The position numbers and the translations under genes are program-made. This document shows, one piece after another, positions 18,499 through 33,289 of a stretch of DNA of 64,000 bases. The notes under the pieces were generated by a model. That model worked only from the letters and a program-made list of their open reading frames with translations, was not told the DNA's origin and searched no databases. Source of the DNA: Candidatus Cloacimonadota bacterium (GTDB lineage: Bacteria; Cloacimonadota; Cloacimonadia; Cloacimonadales; Cloacimonadaceae); assembly GCA_020532545.1 (NCBI GenBank), contig JAJBAW010000001.1, forward strand, positions 1 through 64,000, in the 5' to 3' direction. Every line of letters starts with the position of its first letter. The stretch's first letter is position 1.

Positions 18499-19272
18499 AT
18501 GAAAAGTATTGAACAAATTGCCCGGGAGTTTTTTCCCAGCGAAGACCTGGCCCGCTGTGGCGGAGCCCATAAAATATGCTTGCATTGTGCCAAATGTCGG
18601 GCTGATGAGCCCGATGAGCTCTACGATCCCGAAAAGGGCATCGCGAGCGCCATCGATGCCACCCTTCTGAAGGCCGATGCCAGTAAAGAAGCGGTGAGCG
18701 AACTTTGTGAAATGGCGAATTCATATCAGACCGCCTCTGTGTGCATCAATTCCTACTTTATCCCCCAGATCAAGAAGCTCTTGGATGAATCCGTAAAGAG
18801 CTGCACTGTGATCAATTTCCCCTTGGGAGCCTCCAGCCGTCTGGCTGTGAAAAAGCAGGCCAAAGCAGTGCTCGAAGCCGGAGTGGATGAGGTGGATATG
18901 GTGCAAAACCTGGCCGCCCTCAAAAGCCGTGATTGGCCCATGGTGCTGGAGACCATAAAAACGGTCGCCATCCAGTGTCTGGAGCGCAAAAAGCTGCTCA
19001 AGGTGATCCTGGAAACCTGTTATCTTGATCGTGAAGAGCTGATCATTAGCTGTTTGATGAGCAAGAAAGCCGGTGCCAAATATGTGAAAACTTCCACCGG
19101 ATTCGGACCTTCCGGAGCCGAGGTGGAAGACATCGCCCTCATGCGCGAAGTGGTAGGACCCAAATTTGGCGTAAAAGCCAGCGGTGGAATACGTACTCCC
19201 GAGGCCGCAAAAGCCATGCTGGATGCAGGTGCAAACCGCATCGGAGCCAGCAGCGTGAAAGCTCTTTTATAG
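18499..19272 (+). CDS. deoC: Deoxyribose-phosphate aldolase with Cys-rich N-terminal extension
   Basis: The protein has 257 residues. The DeoC barrel starts near residue 50 (ASAIDATLLKADASKEAV) and contains FPLGASS, DEVDMVQN and the Schiff-base lysine segment KYVKTSTGFG, followed by KASGGIRT. It splits deoxyribose-5-phosphate into acetaldehyde and glyceraldehyde-3-phosphate. The first ~45 residues are an extension with four cysteines (C20, C27, C30, C33) spaced like a metal-binding site. A strong AAAGGAG site precedes the ATG. The next gene is thyX, so two deoxynucleotide genes are adjacent. Confidence 0.92.
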   Translation: MKSIEQIAREFFPSEDLARCGGAHKICLHCAKCRADEPDELYDPEKGIASAIDATLLKADASKEAVSELCEMANSYQTASVCINSYFIPQIKKLLDESVKSCTVINFPLGASSRLAVKKQAKAVLEAGVDEVDMVQNLAALKSRDWPMVLETIKTVAIQCLERKKLLKVILETCYLDREELIISCLMSKKAGAKYVKTSTGFGPSGAEVEDIALMREVVGPKFGVKASGGIRTPEAAKAMLDAGANRIGASSVKALL

Positions 19273-19279
19273 GCCAAAA

Positions 19280-20698
19280 ATGAAACTCATCGTAGCCGGA
19301 TACAATCTCGACAGCAGCCTGATCGACAGCTTGAAACAGGACAATGCCAGCCCGGAAGTAATTTCCGCGGCCTATGCCCGCATCAGTCGTAGCAGCAAAA
19401 GCGTGGATCTGCTCCGTCAGGAAGCCTTAAACGAGGTCGAAAAAGCCCGTAAGTCCAATGAAAGCATCATCTTTGAGATGGGACACGCCTCCGTGGCAGA
19501 ACACGCGGTCTTCAATCTTGATCTGATCGATATCTCCCGCTTGCTCACAGAGACCGTTCAACGCAGCCGTCTAGCCTCCTTCACCGAAAAGTCTCAGCGC
19601 TATGTTACCTTTGGGCAGAGCTATGTGGTTCCTGCCGAGTTGAACAAAAAGCCCAAGCTGAAAAAGGCCTATAAGGACATGATGAAGCAGCTTTTTGGCC
19701 TCTATGAAGATAGCTTCAAGGCCTTGTGCGAGCTTTACCAGCAAGAAAGACCGGAGCTTAAACAGCGCGATCGTGAAGGTCTGGCCAAAGAGGACGCCCG
19801 CTATATCCTGCCTTTGGCTACCAAAACTCAGATGGGGATGACCATCAATGCCCGCAGCCTGGAGAATCTGCTGAGGCGCCTGGCCAATAGCCCGCTCAGT
19901 GAAGCTCAGGAGCTCAAAGAGTTGATCTTTAACGCTGTAAAGCCCATCACTCCTTCTCTTATCCGGCACGTGGAGCCCGATGGCTATCTGGGCCAGATCA
20001 ACCTCAACAGCATAGGCTTTAGTGATTTTCTCCAGCAGGAATTGCCCTGGCTGGCCGAGATTGATCTGGAAAACAAAGCCAGATTGGTCTCTAGTCCCAA
20101 AAATGCTGATGACAAAGTGCTCGCTGCCCTCATCTACAGCCAGGGAGAGCTTTCCTGGCAAGACAATCTGGATACGGTAACCCGCCTGCCCAGAATGGCC
20201 AAAGAACAGCTTTGGCAGCAGGTGTTTAAGGGTATGAAGGTCTGGCACAAGGTTCCCCGCGCCTTTGAAGCGGTGGAATTTGAATTTGAACTTTCGATGA
20301 GCGAATCCTGCTGGGCGCAGTTCAAGCGGCACCGGCAGTGCACGATCCTGAAAAAAGCAGGCTATCCGGGCTTGGCCATCATCCCACCGGCAATAGGGAA
20401 GATCGGCCATCTCAAGGCCTGGCAAGAGGCTATGCAGCATTGCACCCTTTTGGCAGATGCCTTGCCCGAGCCTCTCAAACATCTGCGGGATTATCTGAAG
20501 CTAAACTCAACTCCCTGCAAGATCTATGCCAAGATGAACCTGCGCGAGATCTACCACTTTGTACGCCTTCGCTCCGATGATCATGCCCAATGGGAAATCC
20601 GCCATGTCTCAGATGCCATCTGTAGCCAGGTGCAAAAACAGGCTCCCAATGCCTCCCGTCTGCTCTGTGGAAAGAGCGATTTTAAGCAAATCTATTGA
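19280..20698 (+). CDS. thyX: Double-length ThyX-like flavin-dependent thymidylate synthase
   Basis: The protein has 472 residues, about twice the classic ThyX length. Each half resembles one ThyX domain. The N-half has GHASVAEHAVF and the motif RSRLASFTEKSQRY (95-108), in which the classic RHR has become RSR. The C-half has an intact RHR (350-352) but lacks the following S...E.S.RY part, then CKIYAKMNLREIYHFVRLRS and WEIRHVSDAI. The two halves thus each keep part of the signature, as if an internal duplication had divided the site. The family makes dTMP from dUMP using methylene-tetrahydrofolate and FAD. Enzymatic activity here is inferred. Confidence 0.82.
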   Translation: MKLIVAGYNLDSSLIDSLKQDNASPEVISAAYARISRSSKSVDLLRQEALNEVEKARKSNESIIFEMGHASVAEHAVFNLDLIDISRLLTETVQRSRLASFTEKSQRYVTFGQSYVVPAELNKKPKLKKAYKDMMKQLFGLYEDSFKALCELYQQERPELKQRDREGLAKEDARYILPLATKTQMGMTINARSLENLLRRLANSPLSEAQELKELIFNAVKPITPSLIRHVEPDGYLGQINLNSIGFSDFLQQELPWLAEIDLENKARLVSSPKNADDKVLAALIYSQGELSWQDNLDTVTRLPRMAKEQLWQQVFKGMKVWHKVPRAFEAVEFEFELSMSESCWAQFKRHRQCTILKKAGYPGLAIIPPAIGKIGHLKAWQEAMQHCTLLADALPEPLKHLRDYLKLNSTPCKIYAKMNLREIYHFVRLRSDDHAQWEIRHVSDAICSQVQKQAPNASRLLCGKSDFKQIY

Positions 20699-20736: not shown

Positions 20737-20813
20737 GTCCCTGTAGCTCAGCTGGATAGAGTGGCACCCTCCGAAGGTGAAGGTCAGGCGTTCGAATCGC
20801 CTCAGGGACGCCA
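20737..20813 (+). tRNA. tRNA-Arg (anticodon CCG)
   Basis: A full cloverleaf can be drawn. The 7-base-pair acceptor is GTCCCTG/CAGGGAC. The D arm is GCTC...GAGT, the anticodon loop CTCCGAA, and the T arm AGGCG-TTCGAAT-CGCCT. A discriminator G and an encoded CCA (20811-20813) follow. The outermost anticodon-stem pair is a G-A mismatch. It lies between thyX and the ABC-F gene on the same strand. Confidence 0.93.
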
Positions 20814-20853: not shown

Positions 20854-22620
20854 ATGGCAAACGAAGTAATCCTCACCGCTGAAAACATCAATGTCGCCTT
20901 TGGTGACAGGGTAGTGATAGAAGACGCTTCCTTTGGCCTGCATGCCGGTGACAAACTTGGCATTGTAGGCGTAAACGGTTGTGGCAAAACCACCTTGCTC
21001 AAGGTGATTAGTGGAATCATCAGACCTGCAACCGGGGTGATCACCACGCGCAAAGACCTCAAGATCGCCTATCTGCAGCAAGATCCCAATGTGGATCCCC
21101 AATGCACTGTCTTGAACCACGTGATCCCGGACGACCCCAAAATCCGTAAAGAAGATCATCATTACAAGGCACTGCTCACCCGTCTGGGTATGGATCTCTA
21201 CGATACTCCTCTGGGCATCCTCTCCGGTGGTCAACGCCGCAAAGTCGATCTGGCCAAAGAGCTGGCCCATGAACCCGATCTTTTGCTGATGGATGAGCCC
21301 ACCAACCATCTTGATCTGGATAGCATTGAGTGGCTCCAGGATTATCTCATCAATACCAAATCCGTGCTGATTTTCGTAACTCACGACCGCTATTTTCTGG
21401 ATTCTATCTGCAATCGCATCTTGAATATCGAGCACAGCAAGCTCTACTTTCATGAAGGCAATTACAGTGAATTTCTGAGAGGCAAGCTGCAGCGGGAACA
21501 GGACAAATTGCGCAAGGAAACCCGGCGTCAGGCTCAGCTTACCAAAGAACTGGCCTGGCTGGCACGAGGCGCCAAAGCGCGCGCTACCAAGCCCAAAAAC
21601 CATGTAGATAGGGTAAAAGAACTGCTCAGCAAAAGTTATCTTATCTCCAATCAGGATCTCGACATCTCATTTCAGACCGATCGCATGGGACGCACCATCC
21701 TGGAACTGCACAATCTCAGTAAGGGATACGATGGCAAGACTCTCTTCGAGGATATCGACCACAATTTTCAGCCTCTGGAACGCATCGGCATGCTGGGGCC
21801 AAATGGCTGCGGCAAGACCACGCTCCTGCGCCTCATCATGGGAGAGGAACAGCCCGATCTGGGCAGCATCAAAGTAGGCCAGAATACCCACTTTGCCTAT
21901 TACAAACAGGAAGAAGACAGCTTCGATCCCAATCTCAGCGTCTATGACTACATCGCGCAATATGCCGAGAGCATTCGCAGTGCGGACGGAAACAGAATCA
22001 CCGCCACCGAGATGCTGAACCGCTTCCTTTTTGATGCCAAGATGCAGCAGATGAAGCTTTCCGCACTTTCCGGAGGCGAAAAGAAAAGGCTGTACCTGCT
22101 GAAATCGCTCATGTTTGGCGCAAACTTTATCATCTTGGATGAGCCCACCAACGATCTGGATATCCGCACTCTGGAGATTCTGGAAGACTATCTGGATGCC
22201 TTCAAAGGCTGTTTGCTCATCGTCTCGCACGATCGCTATTTTCTGGATCGCACCGTGGATTACCTCTTCATCTTTGAAGACGGCAAATTGCGCAAATTCG
22301 CCGGCAACTATTCCGATTACCTGCTGGTAAAACGCTTCGAAGAAGAAGAAAAAGTTGCCAGTACCCAAACAAAGGTCATGAGGCCCAAACAGGCAATCAA
22401 AGGTCTGAATTACAACGAAAAGCGGGAATTCTCGCTCCTGGAAACCGAAATCGAGAGCCTGGAGAACAAGCTGAATCTCTGCGAAGAAAAGCTCTCGCAA
22501 AGAGGGCTCAATCACCAGCAGTATGAAGATCTGGCCAAAGAAATAGCGAGTCTGGAGGATAGGCACGATCAGGCTTTTCACCGCTGGGTGGAACTGAGCG
22601 AGAAAGAACAGGACTTGTAG
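20854..22620 (+). CDS. ABC-F family ATPase
   Basis: The protein has 588 residues and two ABC domains with no membrane segment. The first has Walker A GVNGCGKTT, LSGGQRRK and LLMDEPTNHLD. The second has GPNGCGKTT, LSGGEKKR and ILDEPTNDLD. A basic linker (ATKPKNHVDRVKELL) lies between them and a charged coiled-coil tail covers about 525-588. ABC-F proteins act on the ribosome. The C-terminal coiled coil suggests the Uup-like branch, but subgroup assignment needs a tree. It ends the long plus-strand run. Confidence 0.9.
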   Translation: MANEVILTAENINVAFGDRVVIEDASFGLHAGDKLGIVGVNGCGKTTLLKVISGIIRPATGVITTRKDLKIAYLQQDPNVDPQCTVLNHVIPDDPKIRKEDHHYKALLTRLGMDLYDTPLGILSGGQRRKVDLAKELAHEPDLLLMDEPTNHLDLDSIEWLQDYLINTKSVLIFVTHDRYFLDSICNRILNIEHSKLYFHEGNYSEFLRGKLQREQDKLRKETRRQAQLTKELAWLARGAKARATKPKNHVDRVKELLSKSYLISNQDLDISFQTDRMGRTILELHNLSKGYDGKTLFEDIDHNFQPLERIGMLGPNGCGKTTLLRLIMGEEQPDLGSIKVGQNTHFAYYKQEEDSFDPNLSVYDYIAQYAESIRSADGNRITATEMLNRFLFDAKMQQMKLSALSGGEKKRLYLLKSLMFGANFIILDEPTNDLDIRTLEILEDYLDAFKGCLLIVSHDRYFLDRTVDYLFIFEDGKLRKFAGNYSDYLLVKRFEEEEKVASTQTKVMRPKQAIKGLNYNEKREFSLLETEIESLENKLNLCEEKLSQRGLNHQQYEDLAKEIASLEDRHDQAFHRWVELSEKEQDL

Positions 22621-26557: not shown

Positions 26558-29500
26558 CTACTTCTTCAAAGGCAGACTCACAAACACCGTAGTCCCTTCG
26601 TTTTCCTTACTCTTGATCCAGATCTTTCCCTGGTGCAAATCCGCGATTCTTCGGGAAGTAGCCAGCCCCAAACCCAGGCCGCTGGAACGGTATTCTATGG
26701 TGCCGGATTTGTGCGCATAGATCTCATTGAGCTCGTAGAACTTACGGAAGACATTCTTAAGCTGATATTCCGGAATGCCGATCCCATTGTCCTGCACATA
26801 GATCACCACGCTGTTCTTGCCATCGATCTTTTCCTGTTGGAAGGCGGCTTTGCGGGCGCCAATCACGATGCTACCAAAGTCGTTGGTAAAGCGGATGGCA
26901 TTGAGCACCAGATTGTAAATCATCAGATGTAGCGCTTCCCAGTTTGCACTGATCTCAGGCAAGCCTTTTTCTATATCCGTGCGAATGAACATCTTGCGAT
27001 TGCGGGATAAGATATCCACTTCCTGCTGAACCAGCTCCAGAATCTCTTCAATTACCACAGGTGCCATATTCAGGCTCTTCTTGAGGTTATAGTTATTCAT
27101 GGTAGTGATATCGCCGGTGGTCAGGATGAGTTTTTTCACGGAGCTTTCGATCTTGCCAATGATCTCTGTGCGTTCATCTTCATCGGCATACAGGTTTCTT
27201 TTCAACCTGGAGACATAGCTTTGCAGGGTGGTGAGTGGGGTATTCAGCTCATGCGAGACGATCGCCATGAATTCATCCTTCAGCACTTCAAAGGCGTTCA
27301 ATTCACTGCTTTTCTGCAGGACATTTTCATAGAGCATAGCGTTTTTGATGGCAATGCTGAGCTGTTTGATGAACAGGGCGACGATCTCTTCTTTGAGATA
27401 CATGGCGCGGGTATTGTCATCCATATTGTCCAGATACAGGAAGCCGAAGATGTTCCCATCCACCGAGATTGGCGTGCAGAAGATGGTATGCAGTTGATAA
27501 TCCTGGACGCTGATGGCGCTCTTGAAGCGGTTGTCTTCGATAGCGTTGATAGTGCTCACCATCTCCATGCTGGTTTGCGATAGGGACAAGGCGGTTTTAC
27601 TCACTCCGGCCACGTTGCTCAGGATCTGCTTGCCTTTGTTGATTTGAACCTTGTAAATATTGTTGCCATCGCTATCGCGTTTGATCAGGAATCCCCGGCT
27701 ACTATTGGTAAAATCGATGGCATTGGAGACGATTTCATGCTCCAGATCCGAGATATCCACGATGCTCATGAGTTCATGGGAGATCTGCATGAGCTGATTC
27801 ATCTTTTCGATGCGCAAGGTGATTTCGGAGTAGTCCTGTATACGCACTATCAGGGCGGAAAGGTGTTGCCGGACATTGCGCATGATGGAGATTTCTTGCT
27901 TCGTAAAAGGCAGTTCACCATCATCTGAAATCAACAGGTATCCCACCCGCTTGGAGCCTGTCAGAAGCGGGATGATGACCACATGACGCTCATTATGGAT
28001 GATCTGCAACATGTTGTCCAGCTTCAGTGCCCGTTCGACTTCTTTATTCAAGAAAGGATCGATGAGGCTGTCTTTCTCGCAATTGTGCTGGATAAATTCA
28101 GTAAAGTTTTGGATGCGGTCAGAGTATTCCATCAGGCGGAATTGCCAGGGGGCCAGGACCTCGTTGATCCCCTTTTCCATAAGGAATTTGATCCTGTCCA
28201 CATTGTAGATATTGGCGATATTAAAGAGCAAATCATTCCATTTGCGGCGCAGATCTTTGGTCCGGGATTTGAGAGGGATCAGGTCGAACTTGCGGACGTT
28301 CTTGAGGCCGTAGAGATTTAGATTCAGGTAATTAGCTTTATCATCTTCCGGGGTGTCTTTGGTGATGCTTTCAAGGTATTTCCGGTATTCCTGGAAGGCC
28401 TCAGAGGCCATCTCGTCTTGTTTGAGTTCGACCAGAATCTGAATCCGGATTTGATATAATTCCACATTGAGCTGGTAATATTCATATTCGCGCCAGTCTG
28501 CCAGAGCGTTGTTCACCCTGCGCAGGATATCCCTTAAGGGTGTGTTTGCCGAAAGCATGCCCAGTTTCAATTGCAGGATATCCAGACTGCACAGCCAGTA
28601 CCGGTAACTGTTCTCTTGGGCGATACCGCGGGCTTTGTCTATCAATTCCTGAGCTTTGAGATAGTCTCCCAGGCCGTAATGACAGGTGGCTTCCAGGATA
28701 TAAAACACCGTGATGGCATAGTTGTTGTTGATCTCACCTGCGTGTCTGATAGCGAGTTTGAGCTCAGCCAGGGCTTTCTCATAATCCAATTCCACCATGG
28801 CGATCAGGCTGAGCACGTTGTGCTGAAACTCCTCTTCCCGCAGGTGCTTGAAATTGATCTGGACGTTACTGCTCAGGAGCTTTTTCAGCTTCTTGGCGCT
28901 CTTCATTTCGTGCAAATAGTAGAAGTAGGTCTTGACCAATGGATTGATAGTCTTTAGTTTACCCTTTGTGAGTTCAGGTTCTTGCTCCATTATATAATCG
29001 TAATAGTGTCCAAAGCCTTTGATTTTGCTCTTTGCCAAGGCCATATTGCGCTTTACGGCATCCATATAAGCATAATTATTGACGGATTCCATGAGGGTCT
29101 TGCAGGATAGGAGCAAGCGCTCCGCTTCGTGAAATTCCCCCATTTTGATCTTGGCTTCTCCCTGGTTCAGCAGTGCCAGGGCTTTCATGGAGGTGAGATT
29201 TAGCTCTGAGGAATGTTTGTAAGCCAGATCGGAATAGCTGCTGGCCTTCACAGTGATGCCTTGCTTGAGATAGAGATCCGAGAGATTGTTGTAGATCAAT
29301 CCCCAATAGCGACGGATATTGTGGCGTTTCCAGATATTCAAGGCTTGATTCAGGTGATCGTCCGCCTCTTCAATGTTTTTTTGATCGCTGTAAAACACCC
29401 CTAAGTTATTGTGCATGGAGGCCAAGCGGATCAAAACATTGTTATCCAGTTCCGGCGGAATCTCTTCCAGAAAATCATCCATTAGTTTTAGGGCACGATC

Positions 29501-32014
29501 CGGCTCGCCATTGATATTGTGATATACAGCCAATTTATCCACAAAGGCGATCTTAAGATCAAGGGGAAGTTCTTTAGACAAGGCCAGATCCAGATAGTGC
29601 TTTGCTTTGGCCAAATCACTTTTGAGATATATCTGTATAAAACTAAGCCAGATCAGGAGCTGCTGCTTGCCGGTTATGCGCAGGGGCTCGGCTTTTTTAA
29701 AGTATTCCAAGGCTTTTTTATAGTCTTCACGCAAGAAATGAATAGTCCCGATCGCATAGTATTTCTCAAAAAGCTCCGGAATCAAGTCTGAGCTTTCCAG
29801 CAGGAAGCCGGCCCGATCAAAGAACCCTGTAAGCTCAGTTTTTTCCTGGAAGACGCTGAGGTCCTGGATGATTTCTTTGATGCTTACATTGGTGCGGGGA
29901 TCAAAATCCAGCTTCAGCACACTGAGCATGGCTTCATAGGCCTGAGCCTGCTCATAATCCTCACTCAGCATATCTTTTAGCACCAGATAGTAGTGTCTTG
30001 CAGATTGCAGGTCTTTGGCCAGCCTGGCGTTGTCAATCAAGCCCAGACAGGTCTGGATATTGCTTATCTTTCTATTGCTGAAATACTGTAAAAGTCGTTT
30101 TGACACCAGGACATGGACTTTCTCATCGCTTTCCTCAAACATGCGGTCTTTTGCTTCTTTGAAGGTAAAGCCATAGTGCTTCTCATCTTTGTACAAGATT
30201 TCGTTGTAATTTGCATCGTTCAGCAGATTGTACAATTCCGTGTCTTTCAGCTTCAGTATGTAGATCATCAGTTCACGGCTGAGGGCAGTCTGCACGATGC
30301 TCAGCTTCTGCAAATGAGCGTAGTTCAAGGTGGTGAGATGGCTCATGCGCGAGTAGATCGAATGCACCAGCCGGGCGGGCAAAACGTAGTCCTGCAAATC
30401 AGGGGGGAACTTGATTTCATCATCCAGGGCGATCTCTTTCTTTTGCACCAGATCAATGAGGATCTCTCTGATGAAGTGCGGATTTCCTGCGGAGCGCTCA
30501 TGCACTTCATCCATGAATCTGGCAGGCGCTGCTACCGGTAGCAAACGGTTGATATAGGACTTGCTTTCATTTTTGTTGAGGAAGGGAATATTGATCAGCA
30601 CGGTGTGATCGATCTGGCTCACTTTATTGAAGTCATTGCAGGAGAGCACTATCATCATCCGGTTTTGCACCAGGAAGGGAGAGATGAAATTGATAAAATC
30701 TATGGTATGGCGGCTCACATATTGGAAATTGCGGATGATGAAAATGACGGGCTTGTCGCGCACGAGCTGGGACATCAGGCTTTGGACGCTATCAAAATCA
30801 CTTTTGAGGTCGTCCACGGTCTGCGTCAGAGACTTTGCTTCATGTTCACTGGCAAAAAGGTAGCGTTTGAATTTGGGTGAGATCTGCTGCAGGGACTTGT
30901 ATTTCTGGATCTCTTCCTGATTGAGGGATTGCAGATATTCCTTGATCAGAGCAAAAAAGGCTTCATGGTCTGTGCGTGTACAGGAGTAATCGTAGAGAAA
31001 GAATTCACCGCCCAAAAGATGATAGCGAAAAAGCGAGAGGATGCTGTCTTTACCCAGCCCGTCTCCACCGATCAGGGAGACTATCTTGCCATTCATATTC
31101 GTGATCGCGGGCACAAAATCCAGGATTTGGTGGGAGTATTTTTCCCGCACGATGTAGCTATTGAAACGCATGGTATTTACCACAGACCAGGTGGCCGAGA
31201 AGGGATACTCATCATGATGAATACGATTGATATAGCCGATGATCTCTTTCCCGCTTTTAAAGCGATTCTGAGGATTCCGTTCCAGCAGTCTGAGGATGAA
31301 TTTTTCCAGTTCCGGGGGGATGTTTTTGTTCAGTTCGGAAGGGAAATTCGGGATAAAGTATTGGTGCCCACCTGTGATTAGGGCATTGATCTGATCTATG
31401 CTAAAGGGAAAGGACCCTGTGCACAGGCGGTATAGCATCACGCCCAGGGCATAGAAATCACTGCTTTCTGAGGGCGCTTCTCCCAAGTAAAGCTCTGGGG
31501 CCAAATATGGCAAAGAGCCCGAAACATGTTGATTATCCTGTCCTGGATCTATCTTGGAAAAACCATAATCGATGAGCTTTACCGTGATCCGTGAGTTTTC
31601 CAGATGGTAAAGCACGTTCTCCAATTTCAGATCTTTGTGAAAGATGTTCTGGCGATGCAGGGCATGCAAGGCGTAACAGATCTGTACCACTATGTCGTAG
31701 ATATGATTCAATTTGGATTTTGAAAAGCGGAAGTTCGCCAGGGTCTTACCTTCAAAGTATTCGCTGATGAAGTAGATGTGATCGCCCACGTGCCCAAAAT
31801 CTACCACGTGAGAGAGATTGGGGTGCTCGATTTTGGTAATATGGTGCATATCTTCCGCGCTGAAGTAGCGGTACAATTCTTCGGAAGAAAGGTATTGAAA
31901 AAGTTTTAGGGTGTAAATGCGGTCTGTGCGAATATCGCGCACCTTGAACATATTGGCCCAGCTACCCGAGCCCAGGCTCTCCAGCACTTCATAGCGGTGA
32001 TCTATATACATCAA
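26558..32014 (-). CDS. Giant Ser/Thr kinase - AAA - TPR - GAF - histidine kinase hybrid
   Basis: The protein has 1818 residues. Residues ~8-265 form a eukaryotic-type kinase with GSGSWANMFKV, catalytic HKDLKLEN (D128) and DYGFSK in place of DFG. Residues ~280-500 resemble an AAA/STAND ATPase, with a variant P-loop GGDGLGKDS. A long helical TPR region (~670-1180) follows, then GAF-type sensory regions (~1200-1560). The last part is a histidine kinase: SHELNTPLTTLQ with H1588, an N-box NLVLNAIRFTN, DNGIGIPE, and SGLGLGLATS. There is no receiver domain and no response regulator gene beside it. Proteins of this general build exist in cyanobacteria and deltaproteobacteria. The signal sensed is unknown. 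No membrane segment is obvious, so it is probably cytoplasmic. Confidence 0.88.
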   Translation of the reverse strand: MMYIDHRYEVLESLGSGSWANMFKVRDIRTDRIYTLKLFQYLSSEELYRYFSAEDMHHITKIEHPNLSHVVDFGHVGDHIYFISEYFEGKTLANFRFSKSKLNHIYDIVVQICYALHALHRQNIFHKDLKLENVLYHLENSRITVKLIDYGFSKIDPGQDNQHVSGSLPYLAPELYLGEAPSESSDFYALGVMLYRLCTGSFPFSIDQINALITGGHQYFIPNFPSELNKNIPPELEKFILRLLERNPQNRFKSGKEIIGYINRIHHDEYPFSATWSVVNTMRFNSYIVREKYSHQILDFVPAITNMNGKIVSLIGGDGLGKDSILSLFRYHLLGGEFFLYDYSCTRTDHEAFFALIKEYLQSLNQEEIQKYKSLQQISPKFKRYLFASEHEAKSLTQTVDDLKSDFDSVQSLMSQLVRDKPVIFIIRNFQYVSRHTIDFINFISPFLVQNRMMIVLSCNDFNKVSQIDHTVLINIPFLNKNESKSYINRLLPVAAPARFMDEVHERSAGNPHFIREILIDLVQKKEIALDDEIKFPPDLQDYVLPARLVHSIYSRMSHLTTLNYAHLQKLSIVQTALSRELMIYILKLKDTELYNLLNDANYNEILYKDEKHYGFTFKEAKDRMFEESDEKVHVLVSKRLLQYFSNRKISNIQTCLGLIDNARLAKDLQSARHYYLVLKDMLSEDYEQAQAYEAMLSVLKLDFDPRTNVSIKEIIQDLSVFQEKTELTGFFDRAGFLLESSDLIPELFEKYYAIGTIHFLREDYKKALEYFKKAEPLRITGKQQLLIWLSFIQIYLKSDLAKAKHYLDLALSKELPLDLKIAFVDKLAVYHNINGEPDRALKLMDDFLEEIPPELDNNVLIRLASMHNNLGVFYSDQKNIEEADDHLNQALNIWKRHNIRRYWGLIYNNLSDLYLKQGITVKASSYSDLAYKHSSELNLTSMKALALLNQGEAKIKMGEFHEAERLLLSCKTLMESVNNYAYMDAVKRNMALAKSKIKGFGHYYDYIMEQEPELTKGKLKTINPLVKTYFYYLHEMKSAKKLKKLLSSNVQINFKHLREEEFQHNVLSLIAMVELDYEKALAELKLAIRHAGEINNNYAITVFYILEATCHYGLGDYLKAQELIDKARGIAQENSYRYWLCSLDILQLKLGMLSANTPLRDILRRVNNALADWREYEYYQLNVELYQIRIQILVELKQDEMASEAFQEYRKYLESITKDTPEDDKANYLNLNLYGLKNVRKFDLIPLKSRTKDLRRKWNDLLFNIANIYNVDRIKFLMEKGINEVLAPWQFRLMEYSDRIQNFTEFIQHNCEKDSLIDPFLNKEVERALKLDNMLQIIHNERHVVIIPLLTGSKRVGYLLISDDGELPFTKQEISIMRNVRQHLSALIVRIQDYSEITLRIEKMNQLMQISHELMSIVDISDLEHEIVSNAIDFTNSSRGFLIKRDSDGNNIYKVQINKGKQILSNVAGVSKTALSLSQTSMEMVSTINAIEDNRFKSAISVQDYQLHTIFCTPISVDGNIFGFLYLDNMDDNTRAMYLKEEIVALFIKQLSIAIKNAMLYENVLQKSSELNAFEVLKDEFMAIVSHELNTPLTTLQSYVSRLKRNLYADEDERTEIIGKIESSVKKLILTTGDITTMNNYNLKKSLNMAPVVIEEILELVQQEVDILSRNRKMFIRTDIEKGLPEISANWEALHLMIYNLVLNAIRFTNDFGSIVIGARKAAFQQEKIDGKNSVVIYVQDNGIGIPEYQLKNVFRKFYELNEIYAHKSGTIEYRSSGLGLGLATSRRIADLHQGKIWIKSKENEGTTVFVSLPLKK

Positions 32015-32073
32015 TTACTCCAATCGGCTAATTATTCCTCCCAGTTTTGTGACCTTAGTACAGGTGTCAATCT

Positions 32074-32964
32074 TTATCTTTCGAACATGTCAAAAGCGTG
32101 CTTCCAACGCTTGTGCACCCAAAACCAATGATCCGGGTATTTGTGGATATAACGTTCTGTAATGGCAATGATCTGGGACAGTACTTTCTCGTAATTCTCT
32201 TCTTTATCCTGCAGATCCGGATGGTAGATCATGGGCGAAAACTCAAAGCGCAGGCCATCATCTTTGCTGCGGACCACAAAGCCCGGAACGATGGGGATCT
32301 GGTATCTTAGCGAGAGCTTTGCCACTCCCTTCCAGTGTGAGGCCGGGTAAGACAGGAAATCAAGTACCAGACCGTGCGAGCCGGCATTCTGATCTGCCAA
32401 AATGGCCACCATTCTGTTGTCTTTCAGATCGATGATAATGTCTCTTAGCCCACGCTTCATATCTATCACGTGCAGGCCACTACGTTCCCGAATGGCGTTG
32501 GTATAGTCATCAAAGAGGGTATTGCGCTGTTTTTTGGCGATCACGCTGAGGGGGATTCCCTTCAGAGGCAAGATGCGGGCTGCCTCCCAATTGCCGAAAT
32601 GGGCAGTGGCCAGGATCGCGCCCCGCCCCATGGCCAAAGCTTCATCTACATGCTCTCGGCCTTGGATCTCGGATATGCGCTCAAGTTCGGCATCGCTCAT
32701 CAAGTATTCCTCGATGATATTGAGCCCCATCTGCCGGTACAGGCCCTTCAAGACCTCATTGATGCGCTCCTGGGGCCAGGTAGGATAAACTTTCTTGAGC
32801 TGAATAGACGCCACTTCGCGCCTGATTCCCAATCCGTAACCAATATGGTGAAAAAGGCCTAAAACAAAGGCTTTGCTCAGGCGATAGGGCAGAAACTTCA
32901 GCACCGCAATCAAAGCCCTGAAGGGGTAGTATTCGAGTCTGTTTTTCAGTTTTTTCTGGCGCAA
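32074..32964 (-). CDS. Lysophospholipid/lipid A acyltransferase (LpxL/HtrB family)
   Basis: The protein has 296 residues with a hydrophobic N-terminal region. The catalytic HxxxxE motif is ATAHFGNWEAA. Later motifs include LADQN and PIVPGFVVR, and WVHKRWK is near the C-terminus. Enzymes of this family add secondary acyl chains to lipid A at the inner membrane. Its presence supports a Gram-negative envelope. The exact lipid substrate is not predictable. It lies 59 bases downstream of the kinase start and in the same direction as trxA. Confidence 0.87.
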   Translation of the reverse strand: MRQKKLKNRLEYYPFRALIAVLKFLPYRLSKAFVLGLFHHIGYGLGIRREVASIQLKKVYPTWPQERINEVLKGLYRQMGLNIIEEYLMSDAELERISEIQGREHVDEALAMGRGAILATAHFGNWEAARILPLKGIPLSVIAKKQRNTLFDDYTNAIRERSGLHVIDMKRGLRDIIIDLKDNRMVAILADQNAGSHGLVLDFLSYPASHWKGVAKLSLRYQIPIVPGFVVRSKDDGLRFEFSPMIYHPDLQDKEENYEKVLSQIIAITERYIHKYPDHWFWVHKRWKHAFDMFER

Positions 32965-32980
32965 GATAGCCTTTGCCCCA

Positions 32981-33289
32981 TCAAGCGAGGGCAGCGAGTT
33001 TGTTTAGTATTACGTTTTTTGATACAACACCGATTGAGGAATCCATGAGCTCTCCATTCTTAAAGAAAAGCAAGGTCGGGATGCTCATTACTCCATGTTT
33101 TCCAGCTAGTTCCGGGTAGTCGTCCACATTGAGTTTGCCCACAGTGACCCCCTCTGCTTCCTTCTGTATCTCCTCGATGGTAGGACCAATCATTTTACAG
33201 GGACCACACCAGGGTGCCCAAAAGTCTATTAATACCCGTTCACGAGAGATTACTTCATTGAAGTTTTTATCGGTTATTTCTATCAGCAT
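32981..33289 (-). CDS. trxA: Thioredoxin
   Basis: The protein has 102 residues with the active-site WCGPC (C28 and C31) inside DFWAPWCGPCKM, and the cis-proline segment MSIPTLLFFKNG. No signal peptide is present, so it is cytoplasmic. It reduces protein disulfides using thioredoxin reductase, which is not in this window. An AGGAGC ribosome site precedes the ATG. Confidence 0.95.
   Translation of the reverse strand: MLIEITDKNFNEVISRERVLIDFWAPWCGPCKMIGPTIEEIQKEAEGVTVGKLNVDDYPELAGKHGVMSIPTLLFFKNGELMDSSIGVVSKNVILNKLAALA

Follow-up and report, generated by a model that had tools for sequence, protein, structure and literature searches.

Gene organization at the locus

The stretch of DNA analyzed here (the window) comprises positions 1 to 64,000 of contig JAJBAW010000001.1 (assembly GCA_020532545.1) of a Candidatus Cloacimonadota bacterium. 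It contains an open reading frame of 472 aa which matches the profiles of the flavin-dependent thymidylate synthase ThyX, and each half of the frame matches separately (Table 1). The NCBIfam profile TIGR02170 (thyX) matches the frame with a score of 158.8 bits (cut-off 87.9). When the two parts are scored separately, Pfam Thy1 (PF02511, cut-off 24.8 bits) gives 140.9 bits for the N-half and 80.6 bits for the C-half. Thy1 is the only Pfam family matched by the frame, and the search for ThyA (PF00303) in it is negative.

Table 1. Features of the double thyX locus in the window. Residue numbers are those of the 472-aa protein unless T. maritima is named.
Feature	Position	Strand	Basis or remark
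deoC	18499..19272	+	TIGR00126, 222 bits; ends 7 bases before double thyX
Double ThyX ORF, 472 aa	19280..20698	+	ATG start; Pfam Thy1 and TIGR02170 matches
N-half ThyX domain, residues 1-236	19280..19987	+	Pfam Thy1, model alignment
N-half GHASVAEH (68-75), H53/T55-type residues	19481..19504	+	Role of subunit B
N-half R87, dUMP contact	19538..19540	+	Role of subunit C
N-half degenerate RHR (R95-S96-R97)	19562..19570	+	Column counts in 139 N-halves
N-half S105-Q-R107-Y108, substrate loop and tyrosine lid	19592..19603	+	Role of subunit C
N-half R174 (= T. maritima R147)	19799..19801	+	139/139 N-halves
N-half R192 (= T. maritima R165)	19853..19855	+	Role of subunit B; not partitioned
Linker, residues 237-262, approximate	19988..20065	+	Lies between the two modeled ranges with a ThyX match
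C-half ThyX domain, residues 263-472	20066..20695	+	Pfam Thy1, model alignment
C-half R327, derived Arg at the canonical FAD-contacting Ser/Thr position	20258..20260	+	131/139 C-halves
C-half R350-H351-R352, FAD-binding RHR	20327..20335	+	Role of subunit A
C-half R431 (= T. maritima R174), dUMP-activating Arg	20570..20572	+	Role of subunit A
tRNA-Arg	20737-20813		Downstream of double ThyX ORF
ABC-F-like ATPase gene	20854-22620		Downstream of double ThyX ORF

Upstream DNA was available for 16 of the relatives, and in 15 of these deoC is the gene directly before the double thyX; the exception is locus L018, where the two genes are 1.8 kb apart. The recurring gene order in the loci of the relatives is glmU-like, ricT, rlmN, deoC and double thyX. 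In locus L086 (G082), a DHFR gene directly follows the double ThyX in the same orientation; the coordinates are C1:31309-31728 and 31779-33047 on the complement strand. Elsewhere in the window, an 1818-aa frame on the minus strand (26558-32014) is Ser/Thr kinase-like at its N-terminus and ends in a histidine kinase at its C-terminus.

Predicted fold and signature residues

AlphaFold2 was run on 15 sequences, namely the window protein and named loci. The model of the double ThyX has a pLDDT of 81 and a pTM of 0.79. Residues 263-469 of the model align with T. maritima ThyX (1o24_C) with a Z score of 16.8 and an rmsd of 2.5 over 191 residues, and residues 1-236 align with M. tuberculosis ThyX (3gwc_D) with a Z score of 16.0 and an rmsd of 4.2 over 212 residues. 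A ThyX fold is predicted in both halves. An earlier reading of the DNA from its letters (the sequence-only reading) had called for this comparison and would have been refuted by a match of one half alone; in the model both halves match. The pLDDT falls below 50 over at least three residues only at 60-70 and 105-109, which are at or beside two N-half active-site loops. Such loops would fit an ordering by the partner chain.

The signature of ThyX is divided between the halves. The N-half reads R95-S-R97 ... S100..E103-K-S105-Q-R107-Y108, and it additionally retains GHxS (68-71) and R174, which is equivalent to T. maritima R147. The S.RY loop is absent from the C-half, in which RHR is R350-H351-R352 and the residues matching T. 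maritima Q75 and R174 (the latter is R431 of the window protein) are additionally retained. These residues agree with the sequence-only reading of an N-half with S...E.S.RY and RSR in place of RHR. That reading was also correct on the RHR of the C-half and on its lack of the rest of the signature; it is refined by GHxS and R174 in the N-half and by the Q75 and R174 equivalents in the C-half. Canonical ThyX has the whole RHR...S.RY motif in one domain. Neither half of the double protein has it, and the motif is complete only over both halves.

Distribution of the double ThyX

The 17 close relatives found for the window protein all come from Cloacimonadota, which points to the same phylum for the window. 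Thy1 is found in 104 of the 124 genomes of the phylum, and single-domain ThyX in only three (G000, G056, G058); the others have the double protein or its pieces. A wider set of 386 genomes, consisting of the 124 and 262 from other bacterial families, adds about 50 genomes with two Thy1 domains in one frame. The same layout occurs in plasmid records of Bacillus licheniformis, Miltoncostaea oceani, Euzebya pacifica, Paenibacillus urinalis and Parabacteroides distasonis, which carry the bare annotation 'FAD-dependent thymidylate synthase'. Four genomes with two Thy1 matches each (G133, G210, G281, G358) were excluded, since their frames were judged to be single ThyX, either split or separate. G330, a genome which also has ThyA, contains a 522-aa frame with a weak Thy1 match, and this frame was not counted as a confirmed double. 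In L197 (G215), the Thy1 domain is parted by about 1 kb inside one long frame; the insert is likely an intein or similar element within a single ThyX.

Conservation of the split across relatives

A set of 139 distinct double proteins (88 from Cloacimonadota including the window protein, 51 from other bacterial families) was divided into halves, which were aligned with nine canonical ThyX sequences, and residue columns are numbered after T. maritima ThyX. Duplicates, frames under 380 aa (e.g. L017, L020, L031) and proteins with a profile score below 50 bits were left out, as were G215 and G222, in which ThyX is apparently interrupted or split and not doubled, and the fragment of G364. Both full sets, S88/R90/Y91/R147 in the N-half and R78/H79/R80/R174 in the C-half, are present in 137 of the 139 proteins. 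The two exceptions are a row at a contig edge (L121) and a frameshifted row (L009). The whole set is not found in one half in any of the 139 N-halves or the 139 C-halves. Since 137 of 139 relatives keep full complementary sets, the partition is not a product of chance, and the complementary loss in two ThyX domains that had been suspected from the window alone is borne out. The double ThyX of G035 (L009/L026) has an apparent frameshift in its C-half, with residues 1-333 and 368-469 in different frames; the break may be genuine or may come from the assembly.

The individual columns give the same picture. S88, R90 and Y91 are each present in 139/139 N-halves, and in 15, 0 and 0 of the C-halves. 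R147 is present in all N-halves vs 3/139 C-halves. No C-half has H53, S/T at position 55 or Arg at position 70 (M. tuberculosis R87), whereas these occur in 135 (missing in four), 138 and 127 N-halves, respectively. R78, H79 and R80 are each present in 138 C-halves, the remaining row having X. In N-halves R78 is kept in 50/139 and R80 in 122/139, including 88/88 from Cloacimonadota; H79 is kept in 21/139 and in 0/88 from Cloacimonadota. R174 is found in 137 C-halves; an Arg at or near that site occurs in 89 N-halves, a count that hinges on a one-residue alignment gap. Q75 is found in 125 C-halves vs 3 N-halves. The partition is therefore imperfect, as R165 is kept in both halves (125/139 N-halves, 120/139 C-halves) and R80 and an R174-like Arg are kept in many N-halves. 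At the position of C-half R327, 131 C-halves have Arg (83 + 48). By column entropy, the RHR and R174 sites rank 1, 2, 3 and 5 of 185 in the C-half, whereas their ranks in the N-half are 141, 147, 24 and 100 of 188. The N-half ranks of S88, R90, Y91 and R147 are 2, 3, 4 and 6; in the C-half, the columns of S88 and R90 rank 170 and 171, that of Y91 is mostly gap, and that of R147 ranks 159. Eight further doubles examined outside the 139 rows (L211, L212, L214, L218-L222) have the same split. The Bacillus and Paenibacillus rows have, by eye, an extra residue within the C-half RHR (RHNR).

Subunit roles and a probable composite active site

ThyX is essential in many bacteria and is a drug target, and its active site is common to three subunits. 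According to the account of the canonical site in PMC6514825, a review based on solved ThyX structures, subunit A supplies RHR and R199 (M. tuberculosis numbering; T. maritima R174), subunit B supplies S71 and R190, and subunit C supplies R87, S105, R107 and the Tyr108 lid. S88, R90 and Y91 of T. maritima ThyX are among the residues treated by mutation in PMC8316439, and their equivalents are among the invariant positions of the N-half. When conservation is compared with these structural roles, the A set sits in the C-half and the B and C sets sit in the N-half.

The six placements of two N-halves and two C-halves on a D2 tetramer were enumerated. Only CNNC, or the equivalent NCCN, gives complete sites (3/3, 0/3, 0/3 and 3/3 roles). 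In the remaining placements no site exceeds two of the three roles, and all four sites are incomplete.

Conservation, structural role assignment and genome content support a gene duplication and fusion with a composite site. A ThyX gene would have been duplicated and fused, and the halves would then have lost complementary parts of the active site. Two fused chains would form a pseudo-tetramer with C-half A, N-half B, N-half C and C-half D. In a live site, a C-half would supply RHR and the dUMP-activating Arg (T. maritima R174), one N-half the GHxS/FAD-phosphate residues, and the other N-half the Ser/Arg/Tyr substrate loop. Each chain would account for one live site and the dimer for two, and these would bind FAD, dUMP and CH2-H4folate and yield dTMP via ordinary ThyX chemistry. 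The remaining two pseudo-sites would be without the required set and therefore dead. The double ThyX is very probably a flavin-dependent thymidylate synthase that arose in this way and has composite sites in a dimer; the dimer, its FAD stoichiometry and its activity are predictions of this model. The sequence-only reading had arrived at a composite site by duplication and fusion, although it considered a single one, whereas the enumeration points to two per dimer and two empty pseudo-sites.

The empty pseudo-sites may have a use of their own. C-half R327 is near-invariant, R165 is kept in the C-half and R80 is kept in every N-half from Cloacimonadota. R327 occupies the canonical FAD-phosphate Ser/Thr position, so it would sit in a dead pseudo-site. 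These residues suggest that a pseudo-site could be a plug or a new anion or nucleotide pocket (e.g. for NAD(P)H or a regulatory nucleotide), although this is rather unlikely. It is similarly doubtful, but conceivable, that such a pocket signals to the neighboring live site, which would make this ThyX asymmetric and regulated, with a single FAD in each chain.

Thymidylate synthesis in genomes with the double protein

ThyA (PF00303) has no match in the genome of the window. The sequence-only reading had asked for a search for thyA elsewhere in the genome, and a thyA gene together with loss of both sites in this protein would have refuted it; neither was found. The same assembly has a canonical single-domain ThyX with a complete motif (225.8 bits) on contig C101. 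This contig contains genes for a tail sheath, a baseplate wedge, a tail fiber, a DNA polymerase and an RNA polymerase beta-like protein. The tail, baseplate and polymerase genes indicate that this copy of ThyX is phage-borne. C101 (G000; L198, L223-L226) is about 90 kb long, and in a reading of its frames the canonical thyX is near an nrdD/nrdG-like pair. The 1149-aa nrdD-like frame looks intein-interrupted by eye, and the 1841-aa RNA polymerase beta-like frame matches several unrelated phage profiles.

By Fisher tests that take related genomes as independent, strong ThyA is found in 1 of the 103 phylum genomes with the double protein (or a fragment) vs 4 of the 21 without it (p 0.0028), and outside the phylum, where counts were made by hand, ThyA is found in 0 of 53 multi-match genomes, including G215 and G222 which are probably not true doubles, whereas the other 209 include 37 with strong ThyA (p 0.0002). 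The phylum genomes with strong ThyA are G058, G059, G103, G104 and G105, and only G103 also has the double; G008 and G093 have weak partial matches. Outside the phylum, 55 genomes have doubles or candidates; a strong thymidine kinase (E <1e-20) is found in 18 of them, and the 37 others have neither this nor ThyA. Thymidine kinase is present in most Cloacimonadota, so auxotrophy is conceivable there, and its use as a test of essentiality was dropped for this phylum. DHFR was not a clean marker of ThyX chemistry, as it is found in 57 of the 124 phylum genomes, most of which also have the double. Among 70 good-quality phylum genomes, neither ThyX nor ThyA was found in G039 (99% complete) and G072 (94%), which may reflect assembly gaps or thymidine auxotrophy. 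The third good-quality genome without ThyX, G105, carries ThyA. From gene content and conservation, the double protein appears to be a working thymidylate synthase, and it is the sole such enzyme found in many bacteria.

The protein could instead be a ThyX-derived flavoenzyme with another job, such as methylation of UMP/dUMP or a modified nucleotide, while dTMP comes from salvage or an unseen enzyme. PolB is a UMP/dUMP methylase of the ThyX fold, and the thymidine kinase of most Cloacimonadota would also fit a salvage route. However, conservation of the essential dUMP and FAD residues is 99-100%, ThyA is found in the phylum mainly where the double is absent, and outside the phylum it is missing from all 53 multi-match genomes, with 37 of 55 also being without a strong thymidine kinase. 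Therefore, another job is improbable.

It is less probable still that one domain catalyzes alone in an unusual way and the other is a scaffold. In favor of this, the N-half keeps more of the family residues and has the higher Thy1 score (140.9 vs 80.6 bits), but it has lost H79 in 118 of 139 proteins, and a scaffold would have no need for the RHR and R174 of the C-half, which are among its most conserved sites. Decay of a paralogue, with the function covered by a canonical ThyX elsewhere, is suggested by the C101 copy with its complete motif, and is the hardest reading to credit. That copy is phage-borne, single ThyX is found in just 3/124 phylum genomes, and it is the intact double that is conserved throughout the phylum. 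Catalytic sets that are invariant in 137/139 proteins largely refute decay.

Origin of the double protein

The two halves of the window protein have no pairwise similarity (BLASTP E 2.1; local score 33 vs a shuffle mean of 32). Since the halves are not alignable by sequence, their kinship, and hence the duplication, rests on profiles and fold. An IQ-TREE tree was made from 62 halves and canonical rows; of the trees built, the second was without the extra canonical rows L207-L210. In the IQ-TREE tree, a branch (99/97) separates all 26 C-halves from the other rows, and a single group (100/98) unites 24 of the 26 N-halves; L116_N and L138_N are not placed with support. A constraint to a single N-half group is not rejected (AU p 0.425). 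In FastTree, both halves of L116 (G274) are among canonical ThyX. The G274 double is possibly an independent or early-branching case; however, the hint of a second origin comes from FastTree only, and IQ-TREE and the AU test leave it unproven. The G274 proteins (L116/L146) have the same N/C polarity of loss as the other doubles. A single ancient duplication and fusion would explain the doubles most simply.

Meaning and comparison with known systems

The double ThyX is a fused, widespread form of ThyX in which the subunit roles appear to have been separated genetically, and it is probably functional. It resembles an experiment of nature that is both old and widespread. Each role could thus be mutated by itself, a possibility that a homotetramer does not offer. 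The protein would also be a clean case of subfunctionalization of an interface site following duplication and fusion. It likely accounts for thymidylate synthesis in a phylum that is usually without ThyA or a canonical chromosomal ThyX, and the plain automatic name 'FAD-dependent thymidylate synthase' conceals the double architecture. A literature search, in which few subscription papers were within reach, returned no account of a split ThyX site and only a remark on duplication from 2009.

The double protein shares with ThyX of T. maritima (TM0449) and M. tuberculosis the profile, the fold, the dUMP/FAD site residues checked and the genomic role of sole thymidylate synthase. Canonical ThyX assembles four chains, each with the whole motif, into a homotetramer whose four sites are identical, whereas the double has two fused domains, a split motif and a predicted two live sites per four domains.

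The remark from 2009 concerns an uncharacterized Chloroflexi ThyX with a domain duplication, also present in 'a few other species' (Valas and Bourne 2009, PMC3224940). As described in that passage, it has two domains and is the sole ThyX of its genome. The window protein likewise has two ThyX domains per chain and is the only ThyX of its host besides the phage copy. Compared by description, the Chloroflexi protein is very likely of the same architecture, although the passage is silent on the partition of the motif, the roles of the halves and the mechanism.

The closest parallel in principle is the herpesvirus dUTPase, in which an oligomeric enzyme was also duplicated. As outlined in the review PMC8961515, duplication left this monomeric enzyme as one larger chain, in which the catalytic motifs of several subunits are found together but in a changed order. 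Its fold is unrelated to ThyX, and it is a monomer with one site derived from a trimer; in contrast, the double ThyX is a predicted dimer with two sites derived from a tetramer, and it is found in many bacterial families.
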